From NCBI GenBank assembly GCA_012519845.1, contig JAAYPK010000089.1, forward strand, positions 1 to 64,000: DNA of 64,000 nucleotides, given 5' to 3'. This document shows, in pieces, positions 2,978-63,773 of the stretch (the first letter of the stretch is position 1; each line of letters opens with the position of its first letter). The position numbers and the translations under genes are program-made. The stretch comes from Clostridiales bacterium. Lineage in GTDB: Bacteria; Bacillota; Clostridia; Clostridiales; Clostridiaceae. Under the pieces are notes generated by a model. That model was not told the DNA's origin. It ran no database searches and saw only the letters and a program-made list of their open reading frames with translations.

Positions 2978-3523
2978 ATGGGAAAAAACATGGATGTAAA
3001 CATAATAGAATTACTAGAATATTTACAAGATACTGTAGAAAATTCTCCTAAGGTACCTATAAGTGGTAAAACCATGATTGATAAAAAAGAAGTATTAGAT
3101 GTTATAGATCAAATAATCAATTATTTACCTGACCAATTTAAAAAAGCACAATGGATAATGAATGAAAGAGACAGAATTTTAGGAGAAGCTAAAAAAGAAT
3201 ATGATTCTGTTAAAAAAGAAACTATGGAAATGATGAGACAAAATGTTGAGAATCATGATGTAGTTAAAGAAGCTAAAATTAGAGCTCAAGAAATAGTAGC
3301 AGCAGCTAAAAGAGATGCTAAAGCAATTAGATTAGGTTCAAGAGATTATGCAAATGAAATGCTTTCTGAATTAGATAGTCAAATTGAAATAAAAAGAGCA
3401 GAGCTAATAAAGAATTTACAAAATAGTTTTGAAATAGTTGCAACAGATCTTGATAAAAACTTTATTGAAATTAGCTCTACAATAAAAGAAAATATAAAAG
3501 AATTAAGGGATATGAAAAAATAG
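2978..3523 (+). CDS. Conserved clostridial coiled-coil protein (often named ATPase)
   Basis: 181 residues, function unknown. The sequence is rich in charged heptad-like stretches (about residues 60-175: alternating Lys/Glu with Ala), consistent with a long coiled coil resembling DivIVA-like or ATP-synthase-stalk-like proteins. No Walker A or other nucleotide-binding motif is visible, so the common database label ATPase is not supported by the sequence. The ATG at 2978 has AAGGGG seven bases upstream. It follows coaD after 11 bases and its 3' end overlaps the convergent ylbJ by 21 bases. The position next to coaD is, from memory, conserved in clostridia. Confidence 0.8.
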   Translation: MGKNMDVNIIELLEYLQDTVENSPKVPISGKTMIDKKEVLDVIDQIINYLPDQFKKAQWIMNERDRILGEAKKEYDSVKKETMEMMRQNVENHDVVKEAKIRAQEIVAAAKRDAKAIRLGSRDYANEMLSELDSQIEIKRAELIKNLQNSFEIVATDLDKNFIEISSTIKENIKELRDMKK

Positions 3524-55721: not shown

Positions 55722-56390
55722 ATGGAAAAAAATAATGAAAAAGAAGATGAAATTAATAATGTTAAGGAATTTGGTAATACAGCAATAATTTCGCCAAAAG
55801 AGAAAATACAAGTGGTACCAATAATAGGTGAAATTGAAGGTCATATGGTGTCAAATCCTCAAACTAAAACAACAAAATACGAACACTTAATTCCTTTATT
55901 AGTATCAATGGAACAAAATGAAAATGTAAAAGGCATTTTGTTAATACTAAACACTGTTGGCGGAGACGTAGAAAGTGGATTGGCAATTGCAGAAATGGTG
56001 GCATCTTTAAATAAGCCAACGGTTTCACTTGTTCTTGGAGGAAGTCATTCTATTGGAGTTCCACTTGCTACTTGTACAGATTATTCATTTATAGTTCCAA
56101 CAGGTACTATGATAATACATCCAATTAGAATGAGTGGAACAGTAATTGGTGCTTCACAAACTTTTGATTATTTCAAAAAAATTCAAGATAGAATAACAGA
56201 TTTTATTACAGATCATTGCAAAATAAGCAAGGAAAGATTAGAAGAGTTAATGTCAGAAACTGGCGTATTAACAAAGGATATTGGAACAATATTAATTGGA
56301 AAGGAAACAATAGAAGAAGGGATAATTGATGAGGTGGGGGGAATAAAAGAGGCTATAAAAAAACTAAATGAACTTATTGAAGAAAAATAA
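55722..56390 (+). CDS. tepA: ClpP-like protease TepA (translocation-enhancing protein)
   Basis: 222-residue cytosolic serine protease of the ClpP/crotonase fold, in B. subtilis implicated in protein export and signal-peptide degradation. Nucleophile region GGSHSIGVPLATCTDY (Ser110), IIHPIRMSG (His133), substrate-binding LILNTVGGDVESGLAIAEMV. ATG directly after the hairpin that carries its ribosome binding site. In other clostridia spoIIIE usually follows (from memory); here a polyamine operon does. Confidence 0.93.
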   Translation: MEKNNEKEDEINNVKEFGNTAIISPKEKIQVVPIIGEIEGHMVSNPQTKTTKYEHLIPLLVSMEQNENVKGILLILNTVGGDVESGLAIAEMVASLNKPTVSLVLGGSHSIGVPLATCTDYSFIVPTGTMIIHPIRMSGTVIGASQTFDYFKKIQDRITDFITDHCKISKERLEELMSETGVLTKDIGTILIGKETIEEGIIDEVGGIKEAIKKLNELIEEK

Positions 56391-61067: not shown

Positions 61068-62204
61068 ATGAATTTTGATATAAACAAATTACCTACACCG
61101 TGCTATATAGTTGATGAAAGCTTACTTAAAAAGAACCTAGAAATATTAAAGTCTGTAATGGATAGAACAGGTTGCCATATTTTACTGGCACAAAAAGCAT
61201 TTTCAATGTTTTCAGTTTACCCATTAATTAAGGAGTATTTATCAGGAACTACAGCAAGCGGCTTATTTGAAGCAAAGCTAGGATATGAAGAAATGGGCAA
61301 AGAAGTTCATGTATTTATGCCTGCATATATAAAAGAAGATATGGAGGAAATAACATCTATATGTGACCATATAGTGTTTAATTCCTTTAATGAATGGAAT
61401 AAATATAAAGATTTAATTATTAATTCAAAGAAACATATATCTCCTGGAATAAGAATTAATCCAGAATATGCTGAAGTTGAAACAGAATTGTATAATCCCT
61501 GTGCTTTAGGCTCTAGACTTGGAACCACAGTAGATAATTTTAGTGGACAAGATTTAGAAGGTATAGAAGGACTTCATTTTCACACTATGTGTGAGCAAAA
61601 TTCTGATGTATTGAAAAGAACTATAAAAGTAGTTGATGAAAAGTTTGGAAAATACCTTTCGAAAATGAAGTGGATTAACTTTGGTGGCGGTCATCATATT
61701 ACAAGGGAAGACTATGATATTGAAACACTTATAGAGTGTATTATGTATTTTAAGAATAAATATAATTTAGAAGTATATCTAGAACCAGGCGAAGCAGTAG
61801 CATTAAATACAGGCTTTTTAGTAACAAAGGTATTAGATATAATTCATAATAATATTAATATTGGAATATTAGATACATCTGCAGCCTGCCATATGCCAGA
61901 TGTGTTAGAAATGCCTTATAGACCTAATATAAATGGCAGTGAAGAGGCAAATGTACTACCATATACATATAGATTTGGAGGACCAACTTGTTTAGCTGGT
62001 GATATTATAGGAGATTATTCCTTTAATGAACCATTAAAGGAAGGGGACAGATTAGTATTTACTGATATGGCTATATATAGTATGGTTAAAAACAATACTT
62101 TTAATGGTATGAAACTTCCAGCTATTGCAGTATGTGATTTAGAAAAGAATATAAAAATAATTAAAGAATTTGGATATGATGATTTCAAAATGAGATTATC
62201 TTAA
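61068..62204 (+). CDS. nspC: Carboxy(nor)spermidine decarboxylase NspC
   Basis: Decarboxylates carboxyspermidine (or carboxynorspermidine) to spermidine. 378 residues, alanine-racemase-fold PLP enzyme: PTPCYIVDESLLKKNLEIL, cofactor lysine in LLAQKAF (Lys44), GLHFHTMCEQNSD, NFGGGHHIT, YLEPGEAV and the active-site Cys in LDTSAACHMPDVLEMPYRP. GAGGAATAAAATG start; nine bases after the dehydrogenase. Last gene of the operon. Confidence 0.94.
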   Translation: MNFDINKLPTPCYIVDESLLKKNLEILKSVMDRTGCHILLAQKAFSMFSVYPLIKEYLSGTTASGLFEAKLGYEEMGKEVHVFMPAYIKEDMEEITSICDHIVFNSFNEWNKYKDLIINSKKHISPGIRINPEYAEVETELYNPCALGSRLGTTVDNFSGQDLEGIEGLHFHTMCEQNSDVLKRTIKVVDEKFGKYLSKMKWINFGGGHHITREDYDIETLIECIMYFKNKYNLEVYLEPGEAVALNTGFLVTKVLDIIHNNINIGILDTSAACHMPDVLEMPYRPNINGSEEANVLPYTYRFGGPTCLAGDIIGDYSFNEPLKEGDRLVFTDMAIYSMVKNNTFNGMKLPAIAVCDLEKNIKIIKEFGYDDFKMRLS

Positions 62205-62207
62205 TAG

Positions 62208-62249
62208 GGAGCATATATGCTTAAAAATAGGCGTATATGCTTCTTTTTT
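62208..62249 (+). terminator. Terminator after nspC
   Basis: GGAGCATATATGC (62208-62220) pairs with GCGTATATGCTTC (62231-62243, two G-T wobbles) around a ten-base loop, followed by six T. Confidence 0.85.
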
Positions 62250-62279
62250 AGATAAATGTTGATAAAGTTTTTTTATTCT

Positions 62280-62993
62280 TTATTCTAATGCAAAATTATT
62301 AAACCAACCTATATAAAATTTTAAATTTTTTGTAGCAACCCCTCTAAACTTTTTCCCAATCCAATAAATAAATTTATTATAGTATTTGCATACATTAGGA
62401 ATTTTAGTATTGTGAATAGTTTTATTAATATTAAAGGTTTTTCTAACGGCAATAACATATCTATTAAATGATTGCAAAATAGTTGCTTTTTCATTTAAAT
62501 TTCTATTAACAAAATCATTTATGATTCTACTGGTAACTCCATTGTAATGGGTGCTTAGTGAATAATTATTATATGAGTCAATTGCTATTGTTAACGATAA
62601 TTTCTTTGAAGGAACATAAGGCAATTTACTTCCTTTTCTATTTTCCTTTATTGGTCTGTTTTGGATCCCTATATTATCATTTAACTTAATTGATTTATTC
62701 TCTTTAAAATAAGTCAATAATTTGTGTCGCCAAGAAAAAGCACTTGCAATATTTATTTTTAAACTGTTTGATATGTCATATAAACAGTTATTATTCATAA
62801 TATTAATGTATTTTTCCCAAAAAGATAAATGCTTTTTTGTATAAGACCACGGCTTATTAGTAAAGGAGGTAAAAGTCCTATTGCATTCTTTACATTTATA
62901 GCGTTGTCTATTTCTAAATTTACCATATTTAACTATTTTATTTAATTTACAATGTGGACAAATGTAAATAGGATTATCTTCGAAACTATTCAT
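62280..62993 (-). CDS. IS1595-type transposase-like protein, catalytic residues apparently lost
   Basis: 237 residues, intact frame with a good AGAGGTG site. N-terminal zinc ribbon (Cys12, Cys15, Cys34, Cys37: CPHC...CKEC) then the helix-turn-helix region ending SAFSWRHKLL (85-93) match IS1595-family transposases, as does the C-terminal FRGVATKNLKFYIGWF (216-231). Aligned from memory to the ISPna2-like branch, the DD-N-K residues fall on Gln111, Gln174, Cys202 and Ile209. No terminal inverted repeats were found around it. It may be a decayed transposase or a domesticated DNA-binding protein. Confidence 0.65.
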   Translation of the reverse strand: MNSFEDNPIYICPHCKLNKIVKYGKFRNRQRYKCKECNRTFTSFTNKPWSYTKKHLSFWEKYINIMNNNCLYDISNSLKINIASAFSWRHKLLTYFKENKSIKLNDNIGIQNRPIKENRKGSKLPYVPSKKLSLTIAIDSYNNYSLSTHYNGVTSRIINDFVNRNLNEKATILQSFNRYVIAVRKTFNINKTIHNTKIPNVCKYYNKFIYWIGKKFRGVATKNLKFYIGWFNNFALE

Positions 62994-63024
62994 AATAACA
63001 CCTCTATAGGTAGTATTACCAAAT

Positions 63025-63053
63025 TTGACTACATTATTCGTAATATGTATGAT
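63025..63053 (+). promoter_or_regulatory. Orphan promoter divergent from the transposase-like gene
   Basis: TTGACT (63025-63030), 17 bases, TATGAT (63048-63053), pointing rightwards with no reading frame behind it. Confidence 0.55.
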
Positions 63054-63059
63054 AATGAT

Positions 63060-63144
63060 TTAAGGTCTGAATAGTATAAATCTGTTTTCAAGTATATGAG
63101 ACTATTTAAGAGAAATATTGATGGATATTTCTCTTAAATTTTGT
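63060..63144 (+). ncRNA. Candidate small RNA of about 80 nt
   Basis: Between the orphan promoter at 63025-63053 and a perfect 14-pair hairpin (TTTAAGAGAAATAT 63105-63118, complement 63125-63138, loop TGATGG, then TTTTG) lies an 85-base transcribable unit with no coding frame. It may be a small RNA or the remnant of a lost gene's ends. The 395-base gap 62994-63388 otherwise contains only AT-rich sequence, a weak ATATC/GATAT hairpin before seven T near 63270-63310, and the recA promoter. Confidence 0.35.
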
Positions 63145-63339
63145 TATCAACATTTCCTTAAAATAGATTACTATATTAGTTTTTAAAATATAAAGTATAT
63201 TAATATGAAATATGGTATTACATTAAAGAAAAAAGTTATGATATAATTTTATTTGTCAATGTGTTGTATTTAGGGCCATATCAATTGTCCTAGATATAGC
63301 ACTTTTTTTATTTGTTTGTAGAATTCCTAAATTAAGTTA

Positions 63340-63368
63340 TTGTGTGGTGACAAATATATATTGATAAT
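63340..63368 (+). promoter_or_regulatory. Presumed old recA promoter
   Basis: TTGTGT (63340-63345), 17 bases, GATAAT (63363-63368). No LexA-type box (GAACnnnnGTTC) is seen between this and the start codon. Confidence 0.45.
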
Positions 63369-63388
63369 AATTGAAGGTGGTGTAAATA

Positions 63389-63606
63389 ATGAGTTTAGAT
63401 AATAATAAGCTATTAGTGTTAGAAACTGTAATGAATCAAATTGAAAGACAATATGGAAAAGGTTCAGTTGTAAGGCTTGGTTTACATATGGAGATACAAG
63501 GCTTGGACAAGGAAGAGAAAATGCAAAAATATATTTAAAAGAAAACCCTGAGATTTTATTAGAAATAGAAAACTTAATACGAGAAAGAGTTAAGGGAGCA
63601 AACTAA
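63389..63606 (+). pseudogene. recA: recA remnant: internal deletion and frameshift
   Basis: ATG at 63389 after GAAGGTGG. Codons 1-31 read [20 protein letters not shown]... to GKGSVVRLG, aligning residue for residue with the first 31 positions of RecA (E. coli ...QIEKQFGKGSIMRLG). The sequence then jumps, in the next frame (63478-63606), to [36 protein letters not shown] and a stop, the normal RecA C-terminal region. About 260 codons are missing, including Walker A and B and both DNA-binding loops. As read, the start codon gives a 49-residue peptide ending at 63538. It cannot be an active recombinase. Confidence 0.9.
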
Positions 63607-63627
63607 AATTAATTGCTCCTTTTTCTT
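63594..63627 (+). terminator. Terminator after the recA remnant
   Basis: GGAGCAA (63595-63601) pairs with TTGCTCC (63613-63619), followed by TTTTTCTT. The stop codon is in the loop; this is presumably recA's own terminator, preserved. Confidence 0.8.
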
Positions 63628-63657
63628 AATTTATTTTATAAACAAATAATAAATATA

Positions 63658-63686
63658 TTGATATAAGTACATAAATATGATAAAGT
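63658..63686 (+). promoter_or_regulatory. Candidate promoter for the epimerase-like gene
   Basis: TTGATA (63658-63663), 17 bases, TAAAGT (63681-63686), about 90 bases before the gene. The region is very AT-rich, so chance matches are likely. Confidence 0.35.
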
Positions 63687-63773
63687 TTACAATATAATAC
63701 ATAAAATGAGAAAAGTAAAGTGTAGAAATTATTAATGTCCATAAAGTTATTGAATAAGGGAGGATACAGTAAT

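Follow-up and report, generated by a model that had tools for sequence, protein, structure and literature searches.

Duplicate recA genes had been investigated only in Bacillus megaterium and Myxococcus xanthus, according to PMC7029660, which also reports that the RecA2 of M. xanthus shows neither strand exchange nor LexA cleavage activity in vitro and that recA2 is the copy with a LexA box in that species. As in Bacillus (Priestia) megaterium and M. xanthus, two RecA-family genes per genome occur in some clostridia. Unlike the duplicates of those two species, the second gene of Clostridium, here termed recA2, forms a clade of its own, lies behind a leader or a CarD-like gene and is broken in several genomes; it further differs from M. 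xanthus recA2 in having no perfect LexA box where tested, and the shared name implies no orthology. Canonical Clostridium recA, found in the order rimO-pgsA-recA-rny, belongs to the same protein family as RecA2 (TIGR02012), but recA2 stands at a different locus, in a separate clade, and no LexA box was found with it. Likewise, the leader resembles attenuators that use an intrinsic terminator in the 5′ leader, in that promoter-like sequence is followed immediately by a hairpin with a T-run and then by a start codon; unlike the known attenuators it has no Rfam match and no known ligand or trigger. No account of duplicated recA in Clostridium was found among the papers listed from open-licence PMC text.

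The window (the whole stretch of 64,000 nucleotides analysed, from a draft Clostridiaceae genome) contains a recA stump at 63389–63606 (+). Its 5′ part (63389–63481, +) consists of the first 31 codons of a probable recA2, with a ribosome-binding-like AAGGTGG before the ATG, and its 3′ part (63475–63603, stop at 63604–63606, +) consists of the last 43 codons in another frame, ending RERVKGAN. A terminator-like hairpin with a T-run, predicted by folding, lies at the 3′ end (~63592–63626, +). The open frame that begins at the recA start extends for 49 codons (63389–63538). The original prediction had described the join of 31 codons to 43 out of frame, the loss of about 260 codons and the retention of promoter region, ribosome binding site and terminator, and all of this agrees with the sequence and its open reading frames: 258 codons are absent on alignment to the RecA2 of C. 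saudiense (L039), and AAGGTGG, a promoter-like leader and the terminator-like hairpin are present. RecG, DprA and ComM are encoded in the window as it had stated, the last as a ComM/YifB-type ATPase.

The ATPase core, with Walker A and B and the DNA-binding loops, is not in the stump, from which about 258 core codons are absent, so that it does not encode a functional RecA recombinase; a Pfam RecA search of the genome gave no match at this place. Chance resemblance is excluded, because the DNA of the C-terminal part aligns with the ends of recA genes from other genomes in the genus at 73 to 84% identity (up to 84% over ~100 bases) and with the intact recA of the same genome at 75% over 112 bases. 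The junction falls within GCTTGG (63475–63480, +), a string present at two corresponding places in relatives, on the left in Clostridium sp. D53t1 (L099) and on the right in Clostridium sp. K13 (L038), which makes a deletion between 6-base repeats plausible.

We consider it probable that the stump is a pseudogene of an accessory RecA2 that suffered an internal deletion, in a genome that keeps its normal recA on another contig, C80. A RecA2 of this kind, distinct from the housekeeping RecA, would once have occupied this site, preceded by a promoter and by a leader hairpin of terminator-like form. RecA2 most likely serves as an accessory recombinase whose expression is independent of the SOS regulon; in the leader-bearing branch its transcription would start at the leader promoter and end at the hairpin unless some signal permits read-through. 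An internal deletion of ~258 codons, probably between two copies of GCTTGG, may then have joined the ends out of frame, so that the enzyme would have been destroyed while the leader remained in a form that can still fold. We infer that the deletion arose between short repeats and that RecA2 was dispensable in this genome. As a case of decay the stump is unremarkable, and the interest lies in how RecA2 is wired.

The RecA2 lineage was examined across the Clostridiaceae. A family search found two matches to a RecA2 query (E ≤ 1e-10) in 24 of 206 genomes, not all of which have a true second gene: in G077 a single gene is divided between two contigs. The count takes the second matches of G105, G108, G123, G124 and G198 at face value. 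The RecA2 group had been named after a first tree; in a subsequent, careful tree of 55 RecA rows, built without the stumps and without L021 and L022, whose genes are already represented by other loci, and with an X at the stop of the broken C. celatum row, 16 second copies formed one group (support 100/99) apart from 38 canonical rows. The second copy of L046 (G084) was a long outlier in this tree. Judged from their sequences, the 16 rows are a separate lineage, patchy in the Clostridiaceae and carried by a minority of clostridia. Two RecA2 proteins that were scanned scored 567.5 and 561.3 bits with TIGR02012 recA (cut-off 325.3), and the RecA2 core of L099 aligns with solved RecA structures. 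Moreover, pN/pS of intact RecA2 ranged from 0.10 to 0.30 (8 pairs), beside 0.11–0.20 for canonical genes (4 pairs), which indicates that intact RecA2 is under purifying selection.

Some neighbouring cases came to light in these searches. L037 (G028) contains a broken second recA, similar by eye to the more diverged outlier of L046, with which it possibly forms a third RecA type, and at G053:C1:2362890-2363674 a RecA match is split over two neighbouring frames, reflecting either a frameshift in canonical recA or a sequencing error. Plasmid and phage origins of RecA2 were considered and rejected, the best identities being ~70% among the plasmid matches listed (20 of 300 records) and ~67% among the phage matches listed (10 of 191). 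Neither the leader pattern nor the stump junction was present in viral contigs. No vector of RecA2 was found, which is not proof of its absence.

RecA2 loci have two upstream ARRANGEMENTS, a CarD-like gene or a leader of ~100 bases. The CarD-like gene, whose CarD/TRCF RID domain scored over the cut-off, lies directly 5′ of recA2 in 10 of the 12 non-leader loci (L033, L034, L035, L041, L050, L053, L054, L055, L058 and L062); at L051 the only candidate is a frame of 79 residues that weakly matches the CarD C-terminal model, and no CarD-like gene was seen upstream of recA2 in L052. None was recognised by eye among the open reading frames upstream of the stump in the window. Some of the non-leader loci also have a small protein nearby, that of L051 having a weak PcrA/UvrD-tudor match below the cut-off. 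Besides the window, the leader lies directly 5′ of recA2 frames in C. celatum (L036), Clostridium sp. K13 (L038), C. saudiense (L039), C. jeddahtimonense (L044) and Clostridium sp. D53t1 (L099). Four of these rows (L036, L039, L044 and L099) form one branch in the 55-row tree with support of 91/89, L038 being a stump and so not in the tree.

The leader of the window (63214–63314, +) was recognised with 78.8 bits (E 2.6e-14) by R2, a covariance model built from 18 leaders, none of them from the window; the next best place in the window reached 17.9 bits, and the element is single in its own genome, other places scoring ≤ 21.6 bits. Its anatomy consists of promoter-like TATTACAT...TATA, then an 18-pair hairpin, a T-run and the start codon; the hairpin (63258–63305, +), for which the predicted fold (−20.8 kcal/mol) and pair counts argue, is terminator-like together with the T-run that follows it. 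In the first six leaders, window included, 93.5% of cells were paired, a value reached by 0 of 500 shuffles and compared with 31–46% in slid versions; the count of pairs changed on both sides was reached by 34 of the 500. For the 18 leaders without the window, pairing was 93.8% (0/500 shuffles; slid versions 30–48%). Two of five pairing measures were reached by 287 and 279 of 500 shuffles in this larger set, and the covariation of the leader is hence moderate. In the window itself pairing is mostly kept: at several positions both partners differ or a G-U pair has arisen, and a single outer pair is broken.

A family search gave leader matches in 30 of 206 genomes at E ≤ 0.01, some of them weak and unlike in sequence. 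Thirty loci were read from 34 listed places: five precede recA2 (window included), one an MFS transporter gene and ten other or no clear genes, and 14 precede genes whose products begin M..(C)MP(R/T)N.KEG, a DUF2798-type class in which two MPRN.KEG-type proteins were Pfam-scanned and the rest assigned by eye. With 14 of the 30 loci before a DUF2798-type gene, the leader is not exclusive to RecA2. The DUF2798 Pfam score was below the cut-off in L073 and above it in the protein 3′ of recA2 in L099, where the gene order is leader, recA2, DUF2798 gene; a relative of the latter protein, 36% identical, is encoded on another contig of the window's genome. The one paper listed for DUF2798 in open-licence PMC text was unrelated.

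The identity of the leader was considered in relation to known elements. A known riboswitch was rejected, as Rfam 15 gave no match at the gathering threshold for 11 loci, nor up to E 1 for four loci that included that of the window. A ribosome-sensed leader peptide was likewise rejected: an MRCTxG(H/Y)TTCR frame is open in many members, yet it is inconsistent, changing in the loop of L073, L079, L087 and L089, lacking its start codon in L086 and stopping at codon 5 in the window. Owing to this inconsistency, an RNA or DNA element is preferred. The anatomy suggests that the leader may work as a transcription attenuator, and the family (63214–63314 of the window; L069–L089 and L099), usually with one member per genome, is a candidate new cis-regulatory element. 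Two further loci were noted. In L091 (G157) a weakly matching, different hairpin lies behind a promoter-like part of the TATTACAT type, 5′ of a CarD-like gene. In L105 the leader pattern (3412–3438, −) precedes an MFS gene, an arrangement shared with C. akagii, on a contig whose label is that of a Burkholderiales MAG but which is possibly clostridial and misassigned.

The assignment of the stump to RecA2 was weighed against descent from the canonical line. In a quick tree based on 73 residues the stump fell with RecA2 in a 17-row branch with SH-aLRT of 99.9, and its most similar row was the RecA2 of C. saudiense (L039), with 51 of 73 residues identical. The alternative, that it is an old, decayed duplicate from the canonical recA line and lies outside the RecA2 clade, draws on AU tests that reject neither alternative arrangement: forcing the stump beside the genome's own recA cost 7.1 log units over these 73 residues (p 0.29), and a tree in which 16 RecA2 rows excluded the stump lay 4.8 log units above the free search (p 0.68). 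Mean identities were the same (0.616 to RecA2 rows and 0.621 to canonical rows). By itself the protein evidence is weak, and the assignment relies mainly on the leader, which upstream of the stump is that of RecA2 loci.

The regulatory sequences also bear on this alternative. A perfect GAACN4-5GTTC was found upstream of 6/6 canonical recA genes tested, whereas the stump has no GAACN4GTTC within 350 bases of its start, even with one mismatch. The 17 regions examined upstream of RecA2 genes, which came from 16 loci and included that of the window, held no perfect GAACN4-5GTTC, and two of them held one-mismatch matches, the region tested at CarD-type loci lying mostly 5′ of the CarD-like gene rather than of recA2, and L038, L046 and L051 not being covered. 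Together with the top identity to a RecA2, the leader and the missing box make a canonical duplicate improbable, and the stump is most likely a member of the RecA2 lineage. A recent copy of the genome's own recA was a further candidate; it is disfavoured by divergence, by the leader and by the missing LexA box, and the tree tests do not reject it. In naming a remnant of duplication as one outcome the original prediction was thus close, except that the stump appears to be no recent copy of its own recA and most likely derives from a separate RecA lineage with its own leader.

Decay of RecA2 was seen repeatedly. The K13 locus (L038) corresponds to the D53t1 locus (L099), where recA2 is intact, but has lost two segments: the first lies within recA2, and the second runs from the end of recA2 into the DUF2798 gene. 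Read by eye from the strings, the microhomology at the K13 deletions is at most one base, so that deletion between repeats is no general rule here. Furthermore, recA2 of C. celatum (L036) has an in-frame stop in the ATP-binding region. Dead loci thus account for 3 of 6 leader-type loci (window included, with different lesions) vs 0 of 12 non-leader RecA2 loci, an uneven comparison given that the search began from the window and may have overlooked stumps at other places. Two approaches brought the broken copies to light, a comparison of 68 genomes of the genus with DNA of the window and a Pfam search of 59.

These lesions also speak to whether the deletion is real. The population could carry an intact gene, the deletion being a misassembly or an event confined to a single isolate, as might be suspected from a draft genome of 125 contigs and 88.96% completeness and from a join within a 6-base repeat. 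An overlap of six bases is short for misassembly, and this explanation looks very unlikely because genes of this kind are damaged in other ways in two further genomes. Of 12 genomes, six had an nspC match, and none of the six showed an intact RecA2 or an empty site at the position of the stump; in the closest of these matches (L115) the contig ends inside nspC, and L111–L114 and L116 contain no stretch similar to 62201–63740.

It is also conceivable that the stump retains a function, with the leader hairpin, or a 49-residue peptide that includes the N-terminal segment of RecA, serving as a regulatory RNA or modulating RecA. In favour of this, the retention of start codon, ribosome-binding-like site, leader pairing and terminator might be cited. 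However, one internal deletion would leave the same parts, the C-terminal codons are out of frame and no second genome with the stump was found, and we give this idea hardly any weight.

Decay of an accessory RecA2 is accordingly the reading retained here, and with it comes a lead that can be tested. Some clostridia keep a second RecA, apparently independent of SOS, under selection, and in others it has been broken by different lesions; what stands upstream of it is either a CarD-like gene or a leader hairpin of the type also seen before DUF2798-type genes. The D53t1/K13 pair offers an intact/broken comparison at one locus. A more far-reaching proposal, speculative and in our judgement rather unlikely, is that the Clostridiaceae possess an undescribed second recombinase system, in which a RecA paralogue under purifying selection and uncoupled from LexA would be either paired with a CarD-like RNA-polymerase-binding protein, linking recombination to transcription, or switched by a terminator leader shared with DUF2798-type membrane proteins; the window would then have kept the switch after the enzyme died.

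The housekeeping recA of the same genome was located with a Pfam RecA search of its own assembly, which found a full-length gene at G000:C80:20589-21374 (344 aa, zero stops, E 4.4e-144; 478.9 bits against a curated cut-off of 27). Its neighbours, named by eye, give the order rimO-pgsA-recA-rny, and 39 bases before its start codon begins a perfect LexA box, GAACGTAAGTTC. The only other place matched in the assembly was weak and was judged by eye to be RadA/Sms. The same Pfam model matched in 14/14 control genomes and in 58 of the 59 genomes of the relatives search, own genome included. With the normal recA and its LexA box kept on C80, neither recombination nor the SOS response is expected to suffer. 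An intact recA elsewhere was the first option the original prediction had offered, and the whole-genome search bears it out; its description of a chromosomal recA reduced to its two ends is misleading, and the loss of homologous recombination that it had also raised finds no support. That the lineage has lost RecA altogether, a reading for which only the stump itself speaks, can be set aside, given that the C80 gene is full-length with a LexA box, the contamination estimate of the assembly is 0.03% and the nearest rows, 92–93% identical, belong to the same genus. A false alarm, that of a free-living bacterium without RecA, is thereby removed.

Two other features of the window were recorded. 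An IS1595/IS1-like insertion element at 62242–63167 (−) ends 46 bases 5′ of the leader. It contains an open reading frame of 237 aa (62280–62993, −) between 24-nt imperfect inverted repeats (62242–62265 and 63144–63167, 83% complementary); the IS1/IS1595 zinc-ribbon domain scored over its cut-off and the IS1595 and IS1 transposase models below theirs, and one copy, 71% identical, is present elsewhere in the genome. A tepA/ClpP-like gene adjoins ftsK-rimO-pgsA-recA in 7/7 other loci checked (gene names by eye). In this genome it lies at 55722–56390 of the window, beside polyamine genes, and is absent from the fetched part of C80 (L048); its location in the window and not beside the C80 recA indicates that the cluster has been split in this lineage.
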